From Pseudarthrobacter defluvii (GTDB lineage: Bacteria; Actinomycetota; Actinomycetes; Actinomycetales; Micrococcaceae), in NCBI RefSeq assembly GCF_030816725.1, contig NZ_JAUSYG010000001.1:124001-188000 (forward strand): DNA of 64,000 bases, written 5' to 3'. Shown here one piece after another: positions 18,507 to 21,396 of the stretch (positions within the stretch are counted from its first letter, which is position 1; each line of letters starts with the position of its first letter). A program made the position numbers and the translations under genes. Below the pieces are notes generated by a model. The model made no database searches. It had not been told where the DNA came from and was given only the letters and a program-made list of their open reading frames with translations.

Positions 18507-18734
18507 CTAACCGGCCTCCTGGGCTGCCGGGGGCTCGGTGCGGAACTTGATCATCTTGTGCGTGCCGTCGCAGTACGGCTTGATGGCGGAGGCTCCGCAC
18601 CGGCACAAGGCCACTGTCTTCCGGTCCCGCGGCACGGCGGCGCCGGACGGGGTGACGATTTCAAAGTCGCCCCGGACAATCAGGGGCCCGTCCGGGCAGA
18701 CCACTATCGAACTGGCGGCCGGTTCCTGGTCCAT
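18507..18734 (-). CDS. CDGSH-type iron-sulfur protein
   Basis: 75 residues from the ATG preceded by AGGAG with 5-base spacing; an upstream ATG at 18767 would add 11 residues but has a poor ribosome site. The motif CRCGASAIKPYCDGTHK contains the three cysteines and one histidine (C-x-C-x-n-C-D-G-x-H) that bind a redox-active [2Fe-2S] cluster in CDGSH/mitoNEET proteins. Such clusters transfer electrons or sense redox state. It lies about 210 bases downstream of the diiron oxidase and glycosyltransferase genes on the same strand, which suggests, but does not prove, that it is their electron partner. Confidence 0.9.
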   Translation of the reverse strand: MDQEPAASSIVVCPDGPLIVRGDFEIVTPSGAAVPRDRKTVALCRCGASAIKPYCDGTHKMIKFRTEPPAAQEAG

Positions 18735-18944
18735 ATCCGCTCCTGCTTCATGTTGTTCGGGGTTCATGCCTGCACCGCATTCATCGTTGTTGTCCTATCC
18801 CTGCCGGGTACCCGGCGGAGCTTGCCGCCATGGCGCCGCCGGAGTTCTGCCTCGGAATGCGCTGCCGTCCTGATCCTGCTGCCGGCGTAGGGCATGCCGC
18901 CCTTCCACCTGTGGCCGAGGGCCAGCCAGACGCAGACCGCCCGC

Positions 18945-19868
18945 TCAACTGCCCAGAGCGGAGCGAACCATGCTGCCGAGGCGGGAAACACGGCGGTCCC
19001 GTTTGTGCCGGCGTCGTCCGATCTCTGCACAGGCGATGGCAGCTGCAGCGAGCCCGCCCAGCGCGGTTTGCCGCGCCTTGCCGGGAAGGAACAGAGCGGC
19101 CGCGGCTGCCGGGAGCAGTGCAAGTTCGGCGGCCAGCCGCCGCGGCTGGGCGAAGTCGTCGTACGCCTGGCGCAAGCGCTGGCCGAGGAAGTGCCGGGCA
19201 GTGGGCGGCCTGCGGGCCACGAACAGGTCCGGAAGTGTCCGCTCGCTGCCGCCGGCCGCCGTGATGGTCCGGATGAGCTCAAGGTTTTCAAACAGGACGC
19301 CCGCATAGCCGCCGGTGGCCAGCAGGGCGTCCCGGCGCACCCCGAGCGTTCCCGGGTAATCGGCGGACCATGCGCGGTTGAGCAGGGTCCTGGCCGTGTC
19401 CCAGCGCGCGTGCCAGGGGAGGGGTGTGAAGTAGTTCTGCGGCCGCACCACGTCGGCGGTCCCGAGGTGATGGACGACGGCGGCGAGGGCCTCGCGCGTG
19501 TAGCGGACGTCGTCATCGGCAATGACAAGGAACGGGGCGCCTGCGGTGCGCACGCCGGCCATGACGCCTGCCACCTTGCCGTTGACAGCTTCCGCGGGGG
19601 ATTGGCCGTCAAAGGCAGCGGTGCCGTGGCCGGGCGGGCTGTCCGGGCGGATGTGCCGGACGACGGCAGGAAACGCGGCACGGTGGCGGTCGAAGAGGGC
19701 GGAGTCCGAGCCGTCCACCACGGTGACGGGGATCCAGCCCGCCAGGTGCCGGAGGTAGTCCGTGAGCTCTGCCAGGCCGGAGTCCTCCGTCCAGCGCAGG
19801 GGAAGGATGTACTCCGCGTCGGCGGCCAGGCGGGGCCACCCGTGCCCTGCCGCGGGCGCCTTCGTCAC
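18945..19868 (-). CDS. Family 2 glycosyltransferase
   Basis: 307 residues. VTVVDGSDSALFDRHR near residue 50 and APFLVIADDDVRYTREAL near residue 120 carry the nucleotide-sugar and metal-binding DDD (DxD) motif of GT-A glycosyltransferases. Later elements include NTLGVRRDALLATGGY-type acceptor-side residues (TLGVRRDALLATGGYAG) and a C-terminal hydrophobic stretch rich in Ala that may be membrane-associated. The GTG start overlaps the stop codon of the upstream diiron oxidase by 3 bases, so the two are translationally coupled. It probably transfers a sugar to a lipid, protein or small molecule; the acceptor is unknown. Confidence 0.88.
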   Translation of the reverse strand: MTKAPAAGHGWPRLAADAEYILPLRWTEDSGLAELTDYLRHLAGWIPVTVVDGSDSALFDRHRAAFPAVVRHIRPDSPPGHGTAAFDGQSPAEAVNGKVAGVMAGVRTAGAPFLVIADDDVRYTREALAAVVHHLGTADVVRPQNYFTPLPWHARWDTARTLLNRAWSADYPGTLGVRRDALLATGGYAGVLFENLELIRTITAAGGSERTLPDLFVARRPPTARHFLGQRLRQAYDDFAQPRRLAAELALLPAAAAALFLPGKARQTALGGLAAAAIACAEIGRRRHKRDRRVSRLGSMVRSALGS

Positions 19869-20920
19869 GCGGCCACCGGCACGGCCGTCCGAAGCGATGT
19901 CTGCCCGGCTTCCCAGGAGGACATGAGGTGGGCCGAAAGGCGGCTGTCGATGGCCATGACGGCCGTGGCCCCGAACAGGACGTCGGCAAGGAGGCCGGGC
20001 TCGGCTTCAACCAGGCCGCCTGCGAGGTCCCGGCCGGCGATTTGCTCGTGGACGGCGTCGGCTTCCACGTGTTCGTCGAAGTAGTGGGTGATGTCCGGGC
20101 CAAAACCGTGGCGGCGGAACCCGTTGCCGTAGAAGCGGTTGGGCTGGGAGGAGGTCATTTCATAGATTGCGAGATGGCCCGTGATGGCACCGCGGAGCCG
20201 CCGGTTCAGCCCGCAGAGGGACATAAGGTTTACCGAGGCCAGCGAGATCGCGGGGACGGCGTCGACGTAGGCGCCGTAGCTGTCGTCCAGGCCCACGCCG
20301 CGCATGGTCCGGGCGAACAGTGCGCTGTGCATCCGCTCCGGCCGGCCGCCGCCGTATTCGTCGGCCTGGATTTCCACCAGGGCCGCCTTGGCCCGGCCGC
20401 TGAGCCGCGGGATGGCCCACGTGTGTGGATCGGCTTCCTTCAGCTGGTACATGGATTTGTGGACCAGGAACTCCCTCAGCTGGTCCAGGCTGGCCTTCCT
20501 GGCAACGTAGCGGGACACGCTGGGACCGGTGTCCGTTGCGGCCAGGCCGAAGAGGACGTCGGCAACCGCGTCGCTGGTCATGGCGACCCCGCCGGGCAGT
20601 TCGAAGTTTCCCGCAGCCTGCGATGCGGCAGCGCGCAGTGCCGCTTCGAACGGTTCCTCGATCAGCCGCCGGACCCTGATCAGCGCCGGCTCCCACTCCC
20701 AGTTGTCCGAAACGCCGTCCAGTCCGGAGTAATGGAGTTCGTACAGGCAGAAGAGCGCCAGTTGGATGTCCTCGTGGGCAAGGATGTCAGCGGTCCCGGC
20801 CAGCTGCCGCTCCACCAGTCCGTAAAGGCTGTCCAGCTCCGTCCCGGCGTCCTCCGGCGCCTGCGCCAGGGCCGCGAAAAGTGCGCTGCTGACGGGGCCT
20901 CTGGATTCCGGGATTCTCAT
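19865..20920 (-). CDS. Heme-oxygenase-like diiron oxidase/oxygenase family protein
   Basis: 351 residues, annotated in databases as 'iron-containing redox enzyme'. It is all-helical. Probable diiron ligands are Glu162 (LKEADPH), Glu188 and His198 (a Glu-x9-His pair in DEYGGGRPERMH), and His284, Asp288, His291 (H-x3-D-x2-H in DEHVEADAVH). This order and spacing match the HDO superfamily that includes SznF, UndA-like and BesC-like enzymes, which carry out N-oxygenation, desaturation or C-C cleavage. The substrate is unknown. AAGGAG precedes the ATG. It is the first gene of a coupled pair with the GT2 gene, and a palindrome lies in its promoter region. Confidence 0.82.
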   Translation of the reverse strand: MRIPESRGPVSSALFAALAQAPEDAGTELDSLYGLVERQLAGTADILAHEDIQLALFCLYELHYSGLDGVSDNWEWEPALIRVRRLIEEPFEAALRAAASQAAGNFELPGGVAMTSDAVADVLFGLAATDTGPSVSRYVARKASLDQLREFLVHKSMYQLKEADPHTWAIPRLSGRAKAALVEIQADEYGGGRPERMHSALFARTMRGVGLDDSYGAYVDAVPAISLASVNLMSLCGLNRRLRGAITGHLAIYEMTSSQPNRFYGNGFRRHGFGPDITHYFDEHVEADAVHEQIAGRDLAGGLVEAEPGLLADVLFGATAVMAIDSRLSAHLMSSWEAGQTSLRTAVPVAA

Positions 20921-20934
20921 GGTGCTCCTTGGTT

Positions 20935-21196
20935 TGTCGCGCTGGTGGCGGGGACGAACGCGGGACCGCCCATGGTGACTCCCATGCCCGTCCTCCTCGA
21001 AACCCGGGAGACAACATAGTAAGCATGATTACTAATAAAAGCTAAGTGTGCGGGCCACCTGCCGCGCTGCGGCCCGGTCACATGTCTTCAATTGGCGCTC
21101 CCGGCCGTCAACCCGGGCCCGCCCGGTGTAAACTGGACCACGCCCGATGGGCAGATCACCAAGCCTTACCCAAACGAAAAAGCAACACTAAAAACG
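20935..21196. other. Intergenic region between two divergent units
   Basis: About 260 bases with no supported gene. It holds the leftward promoter of the diiron-oxidase cluster with the palindrome at 21017-21034, and the rightward promoter of the TPP-riboswitch transcript. TAAACT at 21128-21133 is a possible -10 for the latter. Confidence 0.5.
21017..21034. promoter_or_regulatory. Palindromic candidate operator upstream of the diiron-oxidase cluster
   Basis: TAGTAA-GCATGA-TTACTA, a perfect 6-6-6 inverted repeat in the AT-rich part of the region, about 97 bases upstream of the leftward start codon. The size fits MarR- or TetR-type dimers, but no such gene is adjacent. Confidence 0.5.
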
Positions 21197-21315
21197 ACAG
21201 GGGAGCGCCGCCGTCGGGCATCCTGGCACCAGCCGGGCACCGCAGGTGGGCGCTGAGAGTGCGGACAGCCGCAGACCCTCGAACCTGATCCGGTTAGTAC
21301 CGGCGCAAGGGAGTC
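21197..21315 (+). ncRNA. TPP (THI-box) riboswitch
   Basis: The conserved elements appear in order: GGGGAGCGCC on the 5' side, GGGCGCTGAGAGTGCGG, the pyrophosphate and pyrimidine sensor segments ACCCTCGAACCTGATC and GGTTAGTACCGGCG, then CAAGGGAGTC closing the helix. The riboswitch ends 80 bases before ykoE, in the expected position to shut off the transporter when thiamine pyrophosphate is plentiful. Confidence 0.96.
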
Positions 21316-21396
21316 GAGTTCTCAAAGTGTCGCCGCTGCACGGCAATGGCCGTCAGCAGGGGGCCACTTTCCCCTCCTGTTTCCCAGGAGGATTAC

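Follow-up and report, generated by a model that had tools for sequence, protein, structure and literature searches.

Predicted heme-oxygenase-like diiron oxidase and type 4 CDGSH protein genes form a conserved pair in Actinomycetes, with an accessory glycosyltransferase

Results

A 64,000-nucleotide stretch of the genome of the soil actinobacterium Pseudarthrobacter defluvii (contig NZ_JAUSYG010000001.1, positions 124,001 to 188,000; hereafter the window) carries a minus-strand locus in which genes for a predicted heme-oxygenase-like diiron oxidase (HDO) and a small CDGSH protein lie on either side of a glycosyltransferase (GT) gene. Our results indicate that the conserved core of this locus is the HDO-CDGSH pair and not the three-gene set, and that the GT is an accessory that has been gained or lost repeatedly. 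We judge the chance to be about even that the locus represents the Arthrobacter-type form of a redox module conserved among actinobacteria, composed of a SznF-like HDO N-oxygenase with three histidine and four carboxylate ligands (3H/4C) and a type 4 CDGSH partner. The features of the locus, with the support for each, are as follows.

18507..18767, minus strand: CDGSH [2Fe-2S] protein, 86 aa, predicted type 4 CDGSH iron-sulfur domain protein (CISD), motif CRCGASAIKPYCDGTHK; PF09360, E 3.7e-19; best PDB match 3tbm, 2.7e-12
18791..19003, minus strand: C-terminal part of the GT, in another reading frame; profile positions 263-334; matched by tblastn with the GTs of 7 relatives
18945..19868, minus strand: N-terminal part of the same GT2-type GT, a 307-aa open reading frame (ORF); PF13506, E 3.5e-6; profile positions 4-277 of 361
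19865..20920, minus strand: HDO gene, 351 aa; PF14518, E 1.6e-59

The linkage of the two core genes was followed in three sets of loci, in which neighbours were counted by profile searches of six-frame ORFs and "near" means within 3 kb of the HDO gene. The class set consists of 100 loci from the matches listed, best first, taken mostly in order with repeated genera thinned. A CDGSH gene was near the HDO gene in 88 of them, and in 61 of these it lay within 300 bases. The named set holds 80 loci, the best of at least 530 confirmed matches, and these therefore lie close to the window; here the CDGSH gene was near in 78, and the two misses (L144 and L153) stop at contig ends. In the phylum outside the class, 24 of 25 strong places, from 23 genomes, were used, excluding the weak f51 matches (E 1e-5 to 1e-8); the CDGSH gene was near in 12 of the 24, so the link weakens with distance. 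Within the class, the CDGSH protein is thus a frequent close companion of the HDO, which makes the redox partnership suggested in the initial annotation plausible.

The 12 misses in the class set were eight loci of family f22 and L063, L085, L088, and L101. In the genomes of the latter four, a CDGSH gene was found elsewhere: at 4.7 kb for L085 (G184), 7.6 kb for L101 (G080), about 17 kb for L088 (G219), and on another contig for L063. Among the 88 linked class loci, the CDGSH gene was downstream on the same strand in 38, downstream on the opposite strand in 33, and upstream in 10 and 7, suggesting that the neighbours were rearranged yet stayed together. In L078 the CDGSH and HDO parts share one stop-free frame, indicating a fusion, although an internal start codon is possible. 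L128, a second candidate for such a fusion, was rejected because its CDGSH part is split between frames.

The same association was seen in whole genomes. With the HDO clade cut at E 1e-45, 161 of the 296 class genomes sampled contained it; 136 genomes had both genes, 25 the HDO only (23 of them f22), 50 the CDGSH only, and 85 neither. A CDGSH gene was found in 135/137 HDO-clade genomes outside f22, versus 1/24 within f22, and in 2/29 genomes that had only distant PF14518 genes. In the 4.58-Mb genome of the window, PF14518 and PF09360 each had a single match, namely the HDO and CDGSH genes described here.

Linkage and fusion data of this kind would suit any partnership. The CDGSH protein might, for example, load or protect the diiron site of the HDO as a supplier of metal or clusters, or as a redox sensor. 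In line with such a role, a review describes the cluster in many HDOs as labile (PMC13108848), and the f22 HDOs occur without a CDGSH protein. However, a [2Fe-2S] protein beside an electron-requiring, O2-activating enzyme would most simply be its donor, and the known HDO partner, MboB, is a flavin/Fe2S2 reductase (PMC13185094). We therefore regard a supplier or sensor as unlikely, and electron donation by the CDGSH protein is the reading followed below.

The window HDO, whose nearest relatives are found in Arthrobacter and Pseudarthrobacter, was predicted with AlphaFold 2 at high confidence (predicted local distance difference test, pLDDT, 96.1; predicted TM-score 0.93). HDO structures occupied the top ranks among the structure matches of this model, in line with the heme-oxygenase-like helical fold that had been proposed from the sequence. 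The E-H-E-H-D-H metal-binding motif, whose six ligands were named in the initial annotation (E162, E188, H198, H284, D288, H291), was identical in 179/179 sequences, window included, and aligned with SznF; judged by alignment, its positions coincide with those of solved HDOs. The set proved to be larger by one residue. A seventh position, E254, was equally identical in 179/179 sequences and aligned with SznF E281, a residue named as metal-binding (PMC11705231) and, when that article is read together with PMC13108848, probably the auxiliary-helix ligand. On this alignment, from which L104 and L118 (<250 residues) were excluded, as they were from the HDO tree, a tree of a quick kind, the predicted ligand set of the window HDO is the seven-residue 3H/4C set of the SznF type. 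E195 was also considered as the extra SznF-type ligand and was dropped, since it varies in the alignment and the SznF ligand E281 corresponds to E254. One gene of the HDO clade, L240 (G555:C154), contains an in-frame TAG within the match.

The closest structure to the model was the N-oxygenase HrmI (34.6), by a clear margin; RohS and SznF, also N-oxygenases, were among the matches, and the structural kin of the window HDO are mostly enzymes of this type. Together, the ligand set and the nearest structures point to N-oxygenation as the probable reaction. The reaction might instead be a desaturation, a C-C cleavage, or an excision of carbon from a substrate resembling an amino acid or a fatty acid, whose product the GT or methyltransferase would then modify. 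This is rather unlikely in view of the structure ranking, and also because FlcD has lost two ligands that the present clade keeps in 179/179 sequences. Among the f22 HDOs, two residues beside the ligands, E283 and E292, are changed (0/7 rows retain them, versus 171/172 and 172/172 elsewhere). The coincidence of this change with the scarcity of CDGSH genes in f22 is only suggestive, since f22 is one clade and the change may be a single event.

The CDGSH protein (CRCGASAIKPYCDGTH, 86 aa) is short and contains a single C-x-C-x2-S-x3-P-x-C-D-x-x-H motif. A Lys directly follows its His ligand, and K or R occupied this position in 163/170 matches to the motif in the class and named sets, window included. 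Lys/Arg after the His ligand is found in more than 90% of type 4 CISDs, which are predominantly from Actinobacteria and Firmicutes (PMC3174974). The window protein is thus predicted to be a type 4 CDGSH protein, a kind that binds a [2Fe-2S] cluster as a homodimer. A strict CDGSH motif found just 34 loci, an undercount because CDTSH variants are common.

All three genes of the cluster described in the initial annotation are present, and the HDO stop overlaps the GTG start of the GT by 4 bases, but the GT is not intact in the window. The GTs of 7 relatives (tblastn) and the family profile both match it in two frames, with the break at about 18,960-19,090, and there is no single ORF for the whole protein. 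The out-of-frame part contains invariant family residues. Read in its own frame, it extends onto the start codon of the CDGSH gene, so that the apparent gap of 177 bases results from the frameshift. The core features of GT2 enzymes are therefore stated for the family rather than for the broken copy: in A2 (27 relatives), D107-D109 and E183 are invariant, and the A2 GT model (pLDDT 92.9) gave structure matches to GT2 enzymes. The Foldseek TM-scores of these matches were low (0.34-0.57 among the 50 matches listed), and only the GT2 class was assigned. The window GT sequence alone had no match among PDB sequences.

In relatives, a GT was present in 21/100 class loci, always downstream on the same strand, in 30/80 named loci, mostly just downstream, and in 8/24 phylum loci outside the class. 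The 30 named cases include a fragment (L208), a cut copy (L153), a partial match (L185), and one on the other strand (L199), and the GT was upstream in L164, L185, and L186. HDO-GT fusions were found in L054 and L055, perhaps as one event, since both belong to genus g28. When the presence of the GT was mapped on the HDO tree, 28 changes were needed, of which at least 14 were forced by well-supported branches. Within the genus, 27 genomes besides that of the window matched the whole HDO-GT-CDGSH stretch, and 32 matched the HDO and CDGSH genes with at most 190 bases between them, too short for a GT (genomes with fragments alone were not counted). The idea that the three genes travel together accordingly holds for the HDO and CDGSH genes, and the three-gene set does recur, but the GT comes and goes.

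These data also bear on the origin of the frameshift. It may be a sequencing or assembly error, in which case the strain would have a working HDO-GT-CDGSH operon; we place the chance of this slightly short of even. The GT was uninterrupted at this place in 18 of the 19 genus loci fetched, L224 having no GT, in a sample that favoured GT carriers because its ranking used DNA similarity to a query containing the GT. On the other hand, the GT is absent between the HDO and CDGSH genes in the 32 genus genomes mentioned above and changes often on the tree, so that a genuine, recent loss would be just as natural. In addition, the assembly consists of a single contig with 99.98% completeness, although a single indel error is still possible in it.

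In other lineages, a HemK2/MTQ2-type methyltransferase stands in the stead of the GT, so the hint of the initial annotation that methyltransferases be included in the search was useful. This methyltransferase was near the HDO gene in 46/100 class, 3/80 named, and 1/24 phylum loci, and it occurred together with a GT in 0/100 class, 1/80 named (L185, with partial matches), and 0/24 phylum loci. The one member tested, that of L046, scored 111.2 bits versus the TIGR00537 cut-off of 87 and has the NPPY motif; the remaining members were assigned by a profile built in this analysis. The sequence around the ligands was much alike in GT-type and methyltransferase-type HDOs, suggesting one core reaction with differing decoration. 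In the eight f22 loci (L108, L109, L110, L112, L118, L119, L122, and L123), the HDO-clade gene adjoins a HemK2-type methyltransferase.

Several other neighbours were recorded. In seven GT-carrying loci (L045, L049, L054, L055, L059, L060, and L073), the gene next upstream of the HDO encodes another class I methyltransferase; for that of L045, the nearest NCBIfam model is daptide_MTase, at 89.6 bits and thus well below the cut-off of 175. Gas vesicle genes (GvpL/F, GvpA-type, GvpK) lie a short way (a few genes) upstream of the HDO gene in L049, L054, L055, L059, and L060, and also in L091 and L128, as assigned by Pfam for the L049 copies and by clustering for the others. A 59-66-aa protein ahead of the HDO in the Streptomyces-like loci L062, L067, L074, L077, and L080 was considered as a precursor of a ribosomally synthesized and post-translationally modified peptide; it is acidic, its family occurs in 5/96 loci, and it was judged unlike a precursor. 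In the window itself, a DUF4235 protein gene (PF14019, 18082-18345, minus strand) follows just beyond the CDGSH gene, and L044 has a gene of the same length after its CDGSH gene. Divergent from the HDO gene, a thiamine pyrophosphate riboswitch (Rfam RF00059, 61.7 bits, 21189-21329, plus strand) precedes an ABC permease gene (PF09819) and a putative ABC ATPase gene.

Discussion

The second oxidation by the HDO MboA requires MboB, for which chemical mediators were no substitute (PMC13185094), and mitoNEET relays electrons from FMNH2 (PMC9490426). The linkage is therefore most simply read as donation of electrons by the CDGSH protein. In the mechanism that we propose, the [2Fe-2S] cluster of the CDGSH protein would be reduced by reduced flavin, or by NAD(P)H through a reductase whose gene lies elsewhere, and would then deliver electrons one at a time to the HDO in its diferric state. 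The resulting diferrous site would bind O2 and form a peroxo intermediate, and the enzyme may then oxygenate a nitrogen atom in a small metabolite bearing an amine or guanidine group. The membrane-type GT2, frameshifted here, or in other lineages the HemK2/MTQ2-type methyltransferase, would provide an exchangeable tailoring step.

A protective role has been proposed for DtpC, an HDO of Acinetobacter baumannii, and the present pair could similarly handle oxidative stress or reactive iron. The protection by DtpC depends on its HDO ligands (PMC13232832), and a clade present in 161/296 class genomes resembles common physiology more than a rare natural-product cluster. However, DtpC shares an operon with the catalase KatE (PMC13232832), the word CDGSH does not occur in that article, and the tailoring-type genes beside the HDOs suggest a product. 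We consider a protective role for the pair quite improbable, and the N-oxygenase module remains the preferred reading.

On a broader scale, the type 4 CDGSH proteins of Actinomycetota might be dedicated donors to a single large clade of 3H/4C N-oxygenases that is so far uncharacterised. These would make a widespread N-oxygenated metabolite whose core is kept and whose sugar or methyl decoration varies by lineage, and they would constitute a second kind of HDO-redox pair, far more widespread than MboAB. We put this forward tentatively, as a possibility rather than an expectation.

The HDO-CDGSH pairing looks unreported: no report of it was found in a limited search of the literature (CDGSH with HDO, diiron, redox-enzyme, gene-neighbourhood, and Streptomyces), subscription literature lying mostly outside the search. 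By the time of a 2026 review, functional validation had been achieved for only about a dozen HDOs (PMC13108848). A CDGSH gene beside the HDO gene in most sampled loci offers a ready natural donor candidate, and the pair is a concrete lead on what type 4 CDGSH proteins do in bacteria. The spread of the clade points to a shared, unseen actinobacterial metabolite.

Comparison with known systems

Among N-oxygenases, HrmI (L-lysine N6-oxygenase, PDB 9n1x) is given as 3H/3C, in contrast to the 3H/4C set of the window HDO, and a CDGSH or GT partner is unmentioned in the excerpts of that source (PMC13108848). The HDO domain of SznF (PDB 6vzy) shares about 20-24% identity with the window HDO. RohS (2-aminoimidazole N-oxygenase, PDB 9pfx) was assayed in vitro with phenazine methosulfate (PMS) and NADH, and the available text mentions no dedicated partner (PMC10724926). 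The GT has about 12-20% identity to PcManGT and membrane GT2 synthases.

For the CDGSH protein, the closest likeness is RsCISD, a type 4 CISD of Ralstonia solanacearum, which has a single CDGSH motif with Lys/Arg after the His ligand and is probably the protein of 3tbm, the best PDB match. It differs in that no enzyme partner is given in the excerpts describing it (PMC3174974), and the words operon, neighbor, and oxygenase are absent from that article. MboAB is comparable to the pair as a whole, consisting of an HDO and a dedicated electron partner in the same operon, and its authors suggest that it may be the first dedicated pair of an HDO and a redox partner to be characterised (PMC13185094). 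However, MboB is a flavin/Fe2S2 NAD(P)H reductase and not a small CDGSH protein, and the product of MboA is an alkyne.
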